Position numbers and translations under genes: made by a program. Below are positions 47,683 through 51,985 of a stretch of 64,000 nt of DNA, one piece after another. The notes below the pieces were generated by a model, which ran no database searches, had not been told where the DNA came from, and saw nothing but the letters and a program-made list of their open reading frames with translations. Origin of the DNA: an uncultured Sphingomonadaceae bacterium (GTDB taxonomy: Bacteria > Pseudomonadota > Alphaproteobacteria > Sphingomonadales > Sphingomonadaceae); NCBI GenBank assembly GCA_947503245.1, contig CANNCV010000001.1, forward strand, positions 1,301,501 through 1,365,500. The letters are read 5' to 3'. The stretch's first letter is position 1. The number at the start of each line of letters is the position of its first letter.

Positions 47683-47708
47683 GTAACCCCAACCCCCCAA
47701 CCAACGAA
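47683..47708 (+). promoter_or_regulatory. ECF (sigma-F type) promoter of the bufferin operon
   Basis: GTAACC (47683-47688) and CGAA (47705-47708) are separated by exactly 16 bases, matching the GTAACC-N16-CGAA motif I recall for the Caulobacter sigma-F regulon. It ends 77 bases before the bufA1 start, and the sigma factor gene is 2.8 kb downstream. Confidence 0.75.
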
Positions 47709-47785
47709 GTATCTGGTATGACGCGGTTGAAGACAAAATGTCCAACTCGTCGTTTTGATATTTTAAAAGTTTAAAGGAAAAACAA

Positions 47786-48070
47786 ATGGCTAATACCCTT
47801 GTAAAAGTTACCGCTGCTGCTGCTGCTCTTGCTGCTGCTGCTTCTCTGGCTTCTGCTCCAGCGGCTGCGCAATCAAAAGAAAAATGCTATGGCATCTCTC
47901 TTGCCGGTAAAAATGACTGCGCCGCTGGCCCAGGCACAAGCTGTGCTGGTACATCAACAGTTGATTACCAAGGCAATGCCTGGAAATATGTTGCTAAAGG
48001 CAGCTGCGTAAAACAAGGAGGTTCTTTGAAAGCGCGCAAAGGCAACAAAAAGCCAGTCGCACGCAAATAA
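47786..48070 (+). CDS. bufA1: Bufferin precursor BufA1 (DUF2282)
   Basis: The 94-residue preprotein has an Ala-rich signal peptide (residues 1-29, ending APAAAQ) and a mature core with four cysteines, C34, C45, C53 and C74, in [26 protein letters not shown] and KGSCVK. This is the pattern of DUF2282/bufferin precursors, whose cysteines are converted to thiooxazoles by an MNIO enzyme so that the exported peptide can bind copper. This is from recent family knowledge; modification here is inferred. The basic tail ([14 protein letters not shown]) is extra. It starts the operon with bufB 21 bases downstream. Confidence 0.9.
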
Positions 48071-48091
48071 TTTTTGCGCTAATGATACCGG

Positions 48092-49063
48092 ATGACCTCA
48101 ACTGCTTATCCTGACCACGCCAAAAATGGCGAAACGTCTACAAGCTATACTGGCCAGAATATCGATAATCGATTGAATGCATTACCGTTATCGGTCGGTA
48201 TAGGCTTAAAGCCAGTACATTATCATGATGTACTGGCGAGCGTGGACGACCAAATCGACGTCATGGCGCCGGGCTGGGTAGAGGTTCATCCGCAAAATTA
48301 TTTCGGTGATGGTGGTCCGCCACATAATTGGCTAACTGCCATCGCCGAGCATTTTCCTCTCAGTCTTCATAGTGTTGGCCTGTCAATGGGTTCTGCCGAT
48401 GGCGTAAGCCGCTATGATCTGGAGAAGATAGTTGCTTTGTGTGAGCGCTATAATCCGGCAAGTGTTTCTGATCATCTTAGCTGGAGCGGTCAAACAAGTG
48501 ATCGTTATCCCGACCTTCTACCTATCCCTTATACTCAGGCATCATTAGACCATTTCGCGCGCCAGATTGATATTGTGCAGGAAAGATTGGGTCGTACTAT
48601 CTTGGTGGAGAACCCGTCGCGTTATCTGGGTTATAAAGATGATGTGATGGACGAGATTGATTTCATCCATAAAATATGTGCGGCAACGGGCTGCGGGCTA
48701 TTGTTCGACATAAATAATGTTGAGGTCAGCAGCACCAATATGTCTGTTATGGACCCGGAGCATCAAATGCCCGGCCCAAGAGATTATATTGATGCTATCG
48801 ACCCTGCAATTGTTGGGGAAATCCATTTGGCTGGCCATGCGCGCGAAGACCATGATGATGGGCCTTTGCTCATCGACGATCATGGCAGCGCAGTAAATGA
48901 TCTGTGCTGGTCCTTATATGAGCGTTTTATCGCCAGATCCGGGCCAAAACCGACATTGATTGAATGGGACACGGATATACCCGATTATGCGGTTTTGATG
49001 GAGCAGGTCGCCATTGCGCGCTCGGTCATGGCCAAAGCCTTGCCGCGTGTAGACGCTGCATAA
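48092..49063 (+). CDS. bufB: MNIO family bufferin-modifying enzyme (DUF692)
   Basis: The 323-residue DUF692/MNIO protein uses a multinuclear iron site to install heterocycles on bufferin cysteines. The TIM-barrel motifs are visible: VGIGLKPVHYHDVLAS, GWVEVHPQNYFGDGG, FPLSLHSVGLSMGS, VSDHLSWS, ILVENPSRYLGY, LLFDINNVEVSSTN and GEIHLAGHARED. These supply the His, Asp, Glu and Asn ligands of the metal centre. It lies between the bufA1 precursor and bufC (12-base gap). Confidence 0.95.
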   Translation: MTSTAYPDHAKNGETSTSYTGQNIDNRLNALPLSVGIGLKPVHYHDVLASVDDQIDVMAPGWVEVHPQNYFGDGGPPHNWLTAIAEHFPLSLHSVGLSMGSADGVSRYDLEKIVALCERYNPASVSDHLSWSGQTSDRYPDLLPIPYTQASLDHFARQIDIVQERLGRTILVENPSRYLGYKDDVMDEIDFIHKICAATGCGLLFDINNVEVSSTNMSVMDPEHQMPGPRDYIDAIDPAIVGEIHLAGHAREDHDDGPLLIDDHGSAVNDLCWSLYERFIARSGPKPTLIEWDTDIPDYAVLMEQVAIARSVMAKALPRVDAA

Positions 49064-49075
49064 AGCCGGCATATA

Positions 49076-49846
49076 ATGGAAAGTTCAAAAACAAATAATG
49101 GTGCCGATCTTTTGGCCGATGGCCAATCCGGCTTTATGGATGCCTTGCAAAAAGGGCCTGACCATTTGCCATCCAATTTGTTCAGTGGTTCGCGCTATCG
49201 TGCCTTTATTGGCGTAAAGGCCCATGCCAATACTATTTCCCATGCACGGCTGGTTGCGCTTGAGGATACTTATCCCAGACTACGAGAGCGCTTAGGTGAT
49301 GAGGCATTTAATCAACTGAGCCGTGATTATCTGGAATATGGCGATGTTCGCCAAAATGATATAAATGGTTTGGGGCGAGACTTTGCCGAATTTATCGATG
49401 CACAGGGCGTAGATAAAGCCAGCAGTGATTTGGCGCATATCGAATGGGCTTGGCTAAAAAGCTATCATGCAGCCGATGCAGAAGCCCTTAATATGCAGGA
49501 TATTGCTGCTCTGGATGAGGCAGCATTGATGGAATTGCCCATCGCTTTCCATCCATCTGTGCAGCATATCATGCTGCACGCTCCATTGGCGCCGGAATTG
49601 GGGTTGGAAGTGCCAGCAGATGACCATTTGGCCGCCATTGCCATCGTGCGACAACAAAATGACGTTTTGCTCTTTCCGCAAACCACTGAGCAAAAAGACA
49701 TTTTTATTTGCTGCAAAAATTCGGTACTGATGCGTAACCTTTTAGAATCCGCTGTCGAAACTATAGGGGAGACGCACGCTGTAGAACATATTTTTGCTCT
49801 TGTCGGAGCAGGGTTTCTAAAGCGTTCGGACAACGAACAAAACTAA
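49076..49846 (+). CDS. bufC: Bufferin partner protein BufC (DUF2063 family)
   Basis: The 256-residue DUF2063 protein is the usual companion of MNIO enzymes, thought to bind the precursor and present it to the enzyme. The N-terminal domain shows LADGQSGFMDALQKGPDHL, FSGSRYRAFIGVKAHANTIS and ALEDTYPRLRERLGDEAFNQLSRDYL in the expected order; the C-terminal half is a looser alpha/beta region. It starts 12 bases after bufB. An exact GTAACC-N16-CGAA element lies inside its 3' part. Confidence 0.92.
   Translation: MESSKTNNGADLLADGQSGFMDALQKGPDHLPSNLFSGSRYRAFIGVKAHANTISHARLVALEDTYPRLRERLGDEAFNQLSRDYLEYGDVRQNDINGLGRDFAEFIDAQGVDKASSDLAHIEWAWLKSYHAADAEALNMQDIAALDEAALMELPIAFHPSVQHIMLHAPLAPELGLEVPADDHLAAIAIVRQQNDVLLFPQTTEQKDIFICCKNSVLMRNLLESAVETIGETHAVEHIFALVGAGFLKRSDNEQN
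49734..49759 (+). promoter_or_regulatory. Second sigma-F type promoter inside bufC
   Basis: GTAACC (49734-49739) and CGAA (49756-49759) are again separated by exactly 16 bases. The element is in the 3' end of bufC, about 165 bases ahead of the doxX start, and could give extra doxX transcript. Confidence 0.5.
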
Positions 49847-49925
49847 TGATTGCAGCGGCTGGTAAAGCCATGGTTTCGGCCATATGGGCTTGCTGTCAGC
49901 CAGATTGTAAAAATGGGATAATATA

Positions 49926-50381
49926 ATGAAAAATCTAATTTCCAAAATCGAAACTCTGACCTCAAACCCGTTTTTGGTGAGTGTCTTTTTGCTTCTAACA
50001 CGGATTACACTAGGCGGTATCTTCTGGCGGTCTGCTACAACCCGCTTTGAAGAAGGCAGCTGGACCACCTTGAACGAGAACGCAATTTACCAGTTTTCCG
50101 ATGTTCCTTTTAATCAGGTGCCTGTGATTAACGGCGAATTCGGTGCGTATTTCACAACATTCAGTGAATTGGCGGTATCCATTTTGTTGTTTCTTGGTTT
50201 CGCAACGCGCCTGAGCGCTCTGGCTACCATTGGCATGATGAGCGTAATCCAGATTTTCGTTTTCCCGACTATCCCGCACCTTTGGGGCGTGGTCTTTATG
50301 TGGGCCATCATGGCGATTGTGCTCGTGGCTAAAGGCGGCGGAATGTTTTCAGTCGACCGTTTGTTCACTAAGGCAGGATAA
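49926..50381 (+). CDS. DoxX family membrane protein of the bufferin operon
   Basis: The 151-residue inner-membrane protein has four hydrophobic segments (FLVSVFLLLTRITLGGIFW, FTTFSELAVSILLFLGFA, LATIGMMSVIQIFVF, LWGVVFMWAIMAIVLVAKGG) and the DoxX pattern SELAVSILLFLGFATRLSALA. DoxX proteins often accompany DUF2282/DUF692 operons; their role (quinone or thiol related) is unclear. It is separated from bufC by 79 bases and followed by a terminator, so it ends the transcript. Confidence 0.9.
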   Translation: MKNLISKIETLTSNPFLVSVFLLLTRITLGGIFWRSATTRFEEGSWTTLNENAIYQFSDVPFNQVPVINGEFGAYFTTFSELAVSILLFLGFATRLSALATIGMMSVIQIFVFPTIPHLWGVVFMWAIMAIVLVAKGGGMFSVDRLFTKAG

Positions 50382-50402
50382 TTCTGCTAACTGCTTGATT
50401 GC

Positions 50403-50436
50403 AAAGTCCGGTTGGTCATATGATCCGCCGGACTTT
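50403..50436 (+). terminator. Rho-independent terminator after doxX
   Basis: AAAGTCCGG and CCGGACTTT are exact 9-base arms around a 16-base loop, followed by T. The U-run is short, so strength is moderate. It separates the buf operon from sigF. Confidence 0.65.
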
Positions 50437-50498
50437 TGCTAAAGAAAGAAGTGAATTTTGTTTCTTGCCAATTGTTTCGGGATGATGTGTAAGCAATA

Positions 50499-51083
50499 AT
50501 GTTTAAAAGGCTGCACAGCTTGCAGCAAAATAATGGGCGATGGATCAACCCTCTTATGGCAGCAAATGAAGATAGCCTCCGGCATCTTATGACTAAGGCG
50601 CAACAGGGCGACAAACGCTCTTATGCTCTGCTGTTAGAGGAATGCCAAAAATGGTTGAAGCGCTATTATGCGCGCAAAATTCCACCTGCGGCACTTGATG
50701 ATCTTGTGCAAGAGACCTTGATTTCCGTTCATAGAAAATTGTCTAGCTATGATCCTTCAAGGCCTTTCCTGCCATGGCTGGCGGCTATTGGCCGCTACCG
50801 CTGGATCGATCATTTGCGCAAAGTGTATCGCGCTGACGAGACTGGTTTAGAAGAAGAATTGCTGGCAGACCCTGCTGAAGAACCGGTTTCTGCTAAAGTG
50901 AGCTTGGACAAACTATTGGACATGCTTCCGGAAAAGCAGGCATCTGTTATCCGTATGGTGAAAATTCAGGGCCTTTCCATTACGGAGGCAGCAGCAATGA
51001 CTGGTCAATCGGAATCCCTTGTGAAGGTGAATGTGCATAGGGGCATAAAAAAAATGAATGTTTTGGTAGAAAATTCTGAGTAA
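50499..51083 (+). CDS. sigF: ECF RNA polymerase sigma factor (SigF-like)
   Basis: The 194-residue sigma70-family ECF factor has region 2 (ALDDLVQETLISVHRKLSSYDPSRPFLPWLAAIGRYRWIDHLRK) and region 4 (LDMLPEKQASVIRMVKIQGLSITEAAAMTGQSESLVKVNVHRGIKKM) in pieces of the usual order. The strong neighbourhood (bufferin operon, NrsF-type anti-sigma) and the matching promoters identify it with the Caulobacter SigF group, which responds to metal stress. The ATG at 50499 gives a 19-residue extension; ATG 50556 (MAANEDSLRHL) may be the true start. Confidence 0.88.
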   Translation: MFKRLHSLQQNNGRWINPLMAANEDSLRHLMTKAQQGDKRSYALLLEECQKWLKRYYARKIPPAALDDLVQETLISVHRKLSSYDPSRPFLPWLAAIGRYRWIDHLRKVYRADETGLEEELLADPAEEPVSAKVSLDKLLDMLPEKQASVIRMVKIQGLSITEAAAMTGQSESLVKVNVHRGIKKMNVLVENSE

Positions 51084-51085
51084 GT

Positions 51086-51110
51086 GTAACTTTATCAGAA
51101 TCTGCACGAA
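51086..51110 (+). promoter_or_regulatory. Possible weaker sigma-F type promoter before nrsF
   Basis: GTAACT (51086-51091) and CGAA (51107-51110) are 15 bases apart, one fewer than in the two exact copies. It lies 124 bases before the nrsF start. Function uncertain. Confidence 0.35.
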
Positions 51111-51234
51111 TACCAGATATAGAATGTCCCACAATTGCGTTTGCAAGACTGGGAGAATGAAAGTTTGAAGCAGTTAGTAGGCACTGCCAGCATGGCTGTT
51201 AAAGCATTGAAAATATGGAATTGAGTAAACGATT

Positions 51235-51927
51235 ATGACAATATCTCAGGGGAATGGCGGTACTACGCAACCATTTAGCATCGATGATCTCGTTGCTGAT
51301 CTGACACCTGTGAATCCTGTGCGGATCCGTGACGGCATCGCTATGGCACTCGCTCTCACACTGTTTATCAGTGTCGCAATTTCTTTTTATCTCGGCATCC
51401 GTAGCGGCCTTGCCGCAGGAAATTTTGAGACGATCTTTGTAGCACGTACATTCGCGCTTCTGGCGCTTGGCGGTGTTAGTGCTTATGCGGCTATGTCGTT
51501 GGCTCGTCCTGCTGTAGATACAAATCTGCGAAAAGTTGAAACCACGGCCTCACGTATAGTTTTGGGTATGGCTTCGGTCTTTCCAATTTTGGCTTTGATT
51601 TATTTCTTTGCAGATATGCCGCGCAGTAGCGTTGAGGCCGTAGCAATTTTTGACCCATCAATTGGCCGCGAATGCCTTACTTATAGTGGTCTTTCTGCTC
51701 TTGCTATCGGCAGTGCTATCACTGTTTGGTTACGCCGCGGTGCGGTTGTTTCACCTGAGCGTGCTGGCTGGTTAACTGGTCTTGCGGCTGGTGGTTTTGG
51801 CGCAGCTGCCTACAGTTTATTCTGTCCAATGGACAGTGTGGTTTATATCGGTACATGGTTCACAATGGCTGTTGCTATGGCTGCGGTTGCCGGGCGTCTG
51901 GTGGTTCCATCACTGCTGCGTTGGTAA
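51235..51927 (+). CDS. nrsF: NrsF/DUF1109-family anti-sigma factor
   Basis: The 230-residue membrane protein has a short cytoplasmic N-terminus (IDDLVADLTPVNPVRIRD, typical of the family) and six hydrophobic segments. Two cysteines, C147 (RECLTY) and C197 (LFCPMD), sit where NrsF proteins carry the conserved pair needed to sense chromate/cadmium-type stress. NrsF holds the sigma factor at the membrane until it is released by metal stress. It lies 151 bases after sigF and ends in a strong terminator. Confidence 0.9.
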   Translation: MTISQGNGGTTQPFSIDDLVADLTPVNPVRIRDGIAMALALTLFISVAISFYLGIRSGLAAGNFETIFVARTFALLALGGVSAYAAMSLARPAVDTNLRKVETTASRIVLGMASVFPILALIYFFADMPRSSVEAVAIFDPSIGRECLTYSGLSALAIGSAITVWLRRGAVVSPERAGWLTGLAAGGFGAAAYSLFCPMDSVVYIGTWFTMAVAMAAVAGRLVVPSLLRW

Positions 51928-51960
51928 GCACAAACGACCAAAGCATCGTTATAATCGATT

Positions 51961-51985
51961 AAAGGGGCAGATATGCCCCTTTTTT
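51961..51985 (+). terminator. Rho-independent terminator after nrsF
   Basis: AAAGGGGCA and TGCCCCTTT are exact 9-base arms with a GATA loop, followed by TTTC. It ends the sigF-nrsF unit. Confidence 0.85.

Follow-up and report, generated by a model that had tools for sequence, protein, structure and literature searches.

The SigF/NrsF switch of Caulobacter is the closest described counterpart of the locus reported here, with CC3252 (nrsF), CC3253 (sigF) and CC3254-CC3257 as the equivalent genes (PMC3511200). Its promoter has been mapped as GTAACC-N16-CGAA, the regulon is induced by chromium and cadmium, and mutants point to a role of both cysteines of NrsF (PMC3511200). These genes also respond to copper, to which cells with a mutated sigF are sensitive (PMC8224329). 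Work on Bradyrhizobium and Brucella has further described the ECF16 consensus along with anti-sigma factors of the DUF1109 type (PMC3420878, PMC8315932). EcfF/OsrA (Bradyrhizobium) and BcrS/AbcS (Brucella) resemble the present system in combining an ECF sigma factor with a six-helix DUF1109 anti-sigma factor that carries two cysteines, and they share a GTAAC..CGAA-type promoter and methionine-sulfoxide reductase targets. They differ in responding to H2O2 or HOCl and in having both genes of each pair in a single autoregulated operon; the consulted sections report no bufferin operon with either pair (PMC3420878, PMC8315932). Induction by metal or oxidative stress via cysteines has been seen in Caulobacter and Bradyrhizobium (PMC3511200, PMC8224329, PMC3420878). 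Buf1 clusters, in turn, comprise a DUF2282 precursor, an MNIO, a DUF2063 protein and DoxX, and a sigma factor and NrsF, present at times, have already been counted among their genes; the consulted part of this account gives gene content without promoters (PMC12452194).

A bufferin-1 operon adjoins an ECF16-type switch

We analyzed a 64,000-nucleotide stretch of DNA from an uncultured Sphingomonadaceae bacterium (hereafter, the window). Positions 47683-51985 carry, on the + strand, the genes bufA, bufB, bufC, doxX, sigF and nrsF, flanked by groES-groEL on one side and the gene for a signal peptide peptidase on the other. The six genes lie where the original prediction had placed them, and each matches a curated model (DUF2282, MbnB_TglH_ChrH, DUF2063, DoxX, Sigma70 r2/r4 and NrsF, respectively):

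47786..48070, +, bufA, bufferin-1 precursor with signal peptide and four cysteines (Pfam DUF2282, 9.7e-24; cysteine positions)
48092..49063, +, bufB, MNIO bufferin maturase (NCBIfam MNIO_BufB, 318.8 bits, cut-off 310)
49076..49846, +, bufC, DUF2063 partner protein (Pfam DUF2063)
49926..50381, +, doxX (Pfam DoxX)
50499..51083, +, sigF, ECF sigma factor (Pfam Sigma70 r2 and r4_2)
51235..51927, +, nrsF, anti-sigma factor with cysteines 147 and 197 (Pfam NrsF, 2.3e-37)
51961..51982, +, intrinsic-terminator-like hairpin 3' of nrsF (9 pairs, then a T run)

The four cysteines claimed for BufA are residues 34, 45, 53 and 74, and its signal peptide was read off the sequence itself. This DUF2282 precursor and its BufB-type MNIO, DUF2063 and DoxX partners correspond to the composition of a Buf1 cluster. 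The regulatory pair corresponds to ECF16, as the Pfam matches to Sigma70 r2/r4_2 and to NrsF/DUF1109 fall on adjacent genes and NrsF contains the two expected cysteines and no others. These are 50 residues apart, as are C131 and C181 of the Caulobacter protein. With 33.9 bits against a cut-off of 300 in the NCBIfam NrsF equivalog model, the anti-sigma factor is a distant member of its family. The alignment of SigF to its relatives begins at about residue 20 of the annotated protein, and the true start may thus be the ATG at 50556.

Overall, the locus is like Caulobacter SigF/NrsF with CC3254-CC3257 in its six gene families, the GTAACC-N16-CGAA promoter and the two NrsF cysteines (PMC3511200, PMC8224329). 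A comparison with the Caulobacter buf/sigF region, proposed at the outset as a check, bore this out: the same genes are neighbors, the same promoter has been mapped and copper induces the regulon (PMC3511200, PMC8224329). The idea of one bufferin-SigF/NrsF feedback circuit is supported by homology to Caulobacter and by promoter conservation (see below), but the circuit is not a new one. What differs is the wiring: in Caulobacter, sigF-nrsF is read from a separate promoter immediately 5' of sigF, whereas here sigF lies 3' of doxX, the predicted promoter is located within bufC, and nrsF is preceded by an additional site.

Two exact and one off-consensus SigF-type sites

Three copies of the promoter had been proposed. 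The sites before bufA and within bufC are indeed exact, but the one before nrsF carries one substitution and is one base short:

47683..47708, +, putative SigF-type promoter before bufA, GTAACC-N16-CGAA (exact match; kept before bufA in relatives)
49734..49759, +, putative intragenic SigF-type promoter in bufC, 166 nt 5' of the doxX start codon (exact GTAACC-N16-CGAA; synonymous-site constraint; link to downstream sigF)
51086..51110, +, SigF-type site in the sigF-nrsF gap, off-consensus as GTAACT-N15-CGAA (sequence; canonical counterpart in L050, L051 and L052)

Within the window, two motif matches arose in 3/100 shuffles, which is modest evidence against chance. The matter was settled by related loci of sphingomonads (named ones include Sphingorhabdus, Sphingopyxis and Erythrobacter): of 42 GTAACC..CGAA pairs on the coding strand of 39 loci, with spacings of 8-25 counted, 40 were spaced by exactly 16, which is beyond chance. 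The two exact sites, kept in relatives, agree with the ECF16 promoter tGTAACc-N16-CGAA. In relatives, the motif is found ahead of bufA, of a divergent bufB or of sigF itself, depending on gene arrangement, and it adjoins sigF-nrsF in all arrangements seen. The genome-wide search that had been suggested as a further check was carried out by pattern searches and did not help: its 17 exact matches (N15-17) were not above a reversed-pattern control. The motif alone thus does not define the regulon, and we dropped regulon prediction from exact motifs and retained only orthologue-conserved sites.

A candidate regulon including periplasmic methionine repair

One exact site in the window's own genome lies upstream of a gene for a periplasmic MsrA. 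Among the genomes whose MsrA locus was compared, this site occurred in 7/10 with a clear NrsF match, 2/8 with a weak one and 0/11 without (clear versus none, Fisher p 0.001). All three genus members have a site ahead of a redoxin-like lipoprotein gene, and in two of them it reads GTAACT. Judging from these distributions, SigF probably also drives periplasmic MsrA and the redoxin lipoprotein, and the response would thereby join copper buffering with envelope repair. The Caulobacter regulon contains MsrP where MsrA is predicted here; both systems would then couple copper buffering to methionine repair in the envelope, but with different enzymes. The predicted SigF response of sphingomonads is thus extended to periplasmic methionine repair.

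Eight msrA loci (L230-L233, L236, L238, L239 and L241) carry a conserved ORF of ~45 residues with an FLKSD..RNF..GF-type start between the SigF-type motif and periplasmic msrA. In the window's own genome, exact motifs also lie just 5' of genes for an Arg/Gly-rich secreted protein, a short secreted protein, a MarR-like protein and a pyridine nucleotide-disulphide oxidoreductase (L001, L003, L015 and L016, respectively), which are possible further SigF targets.

A SigF-type site is nested in bufC

The bufC site is present in the same reading frame, ~90-155 nt 5' of the stop codon, in 32/32 clear bufC orthologues (at least 35% identity). It is absent from five remote BufC homologues (22-28% identity), which are transcribed away from doxX. 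After removal of duplicates, 39/41 loci with sigF downstream of doxX contained the site versus 3/41 with sigF divergent or not adjacent; the exceptions are thus three loci with the site but no sigF beside doxX and two with sigF downstream but no site. On a BufC tree built without the motif columns, the motif maps to a single change. This points to one gain followed by long retention and led us to reject many independent events as the source of the association with gene order. The doxX-sigF gap is -15 to 42 nt in 36/41 loci, and doxX, sigF and nrsF usually overlap or almost touch. The bufC site would most likely drive doxX-sigF-nrsF and, as the gene anatomy implies, replace the usual promoter ahead of sigF where sigF is downstream of doxX.

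A motif within a coding sequence could also be a by-product of protein conservation, namely of an x-N-L-L...E stretch that happens to read GTAACC..CGAA. The Asn and Glu of the motif are indeed invariant (47/47 motif-bearing BufC proteins), and the neighboring Leu is almost so, with its CTT codon over-conserved as well. However, neither Asn nor Glu is conserved in 60 BufC proteins without the motif, and GAG and AAT were never found at the motif codons of the 32 orthologues. Moreover, the -35 codon reads GGT, TGT, CGT or AGT, so that the residue varies (G, C, R or S) and GT is fixed in 32/32, and the codon preceding GAA ends in C in 32/32 while encoding ten different residues. Third codon positions of the motif deviate from codon-usage simulations with z scores of 4.7-6.4, and the spacer codons are mostly free. 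We therefore consider protein conservation a very improbable origin of the motif and reject it on this codon evidence. These codon patterns mark the bufC site as a genuine element on which selection acts at the level of DNA, and the promoter of the sigF switch appears to be hidden within the bufC coding sequence in a version common to sphingomonads. In the same gene, the strongest single synonymous constraint (z 9.5) falls on an Ala codon of a HANT stretch (49226-49228), which is GCC in 32/32 orthologues.

An additional site precedes nrsF in one clade

The sigF-nrsF gap measures 2-41 nt in 36 loci and is wide only in the window (155 nt), two other genus members (199 and 219 nt) and one species of a neighboring genus (162 nt). 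The extra nrsF site occurs in exactly these loci, and it is a canonical GTAACC-N16-CGAA in both other genus members and in the neighboring-genus species. A further element lies upstream of sigF:

50401..50439, +, terminator-like hairpin with a short T tract in the doxX-sigF gap (fold -23.9 kcal/mol, z -4.5)

Each of the three genus members has a hairpin at this position (z about -4 to -4.5), but the hairpins have no sequence in common, and the T tract is restricted to that of the window. The arrangement suggests that SigF could act on nrsF separately and that sigF could be partly insulated.

The window's own nrsF site may be weak or inactive. It is quite conceivable, if somewhat short of an even chance, that this copy has decayed, leaving two working promoters and nrsF read from upstream, as it combines GTAACT with N15 and nearly all sites of the family have N16. 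Yet GTAACT is found at conserved sites of relatives, a GTAACC-N15-CGAA lies directly before sigF in one relative (L068), and Bradyrhizobium EcfF sites differ in spacing by one base. A broader objection would be that the sites serve an ECF sigma factor other than the adjacent SigF, in line with the several exact genome sites that precede unrelated secreted-protein genes. We deem this improbable, since the motif equals the consensus published for ECF16, accompanies sigF-nrsF in every arrangement seen, and at msrA is confined to genomes with an NrsF match.

A model for the sphingomonad SigF switch

Our analysis makes it quite likely that an ECF16 SigF/NrsF switch controls the bufferin-1 operon, with a bufC-internal promoter for doxX-sigF-nrsF and a clade-specific nrsF site. 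By analogy to the homologues, membrane-bound NrsF would hold SigF until metal or thiol stress on its two cysteines releases it. As the anatomy of the locus implies, freed SigF would then use the first site to transcribe bufABC, and the promoter overlapping the end of the bufC coding region to transcribe doxX-sigF-nrsF. In the genus and one neighboring species, the nrsF site would let SigF raise its inhibitor apart from itself, resulting in stronger negative feedback. The model rests directly on the identified genes, on where the motifs lie, and on how they are conserved at the DNA level and distributed; that the sites are active promoters, that SigF recognizes them, that metals are sensed and which sign the feedback has are what we infer.

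We regard as an evenly balanced possibility that the bufC-overlapping SigF promoter arose once, fixed BufC residues and sets sigF autoregulation family-wide, and that a single clade later gained a promoter for the anti-sigma gene alone, together with a hairpin that partly insulates sigF, moving from joint to dedicated negative feedback. Compared with the open-access literature, the system itself is known, and the predicted nested bufC promoter and anti-sigma-only promoter are additions to it; this promoter arrangement is new and well supported by the sequence comparisons. A regulator moved behind another operon could thus keep its own promoter inside a coding gene and thereby constrain that protein. 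Joint, nested and anti-sigma-only feedback would form a natural series for measuring the effect of wiring on the copper response.

Three loci (L059, L061 and L067) have the groES-sppA neighborhood with a SigF-type site, sigF and nrsF; bufABC-doxX was not detected in them, i.e., they represent the switch without the bufferin operon. Stand-alone DUF2282 genes are found in several relatives (L148, L150, L169 and L171) and in the window's own genome, where a lone bufferin-like gene (L069; G000:C1:1019876-1020019, minus strand) has no adjoining maturase. This second DUF2282 gene was rejected as a SigF target, as it has no near upstream site within one mismatch. Its product has a lipobox-like start (LAAC) and may serve BufB as another substrate, anchored in the membrane.
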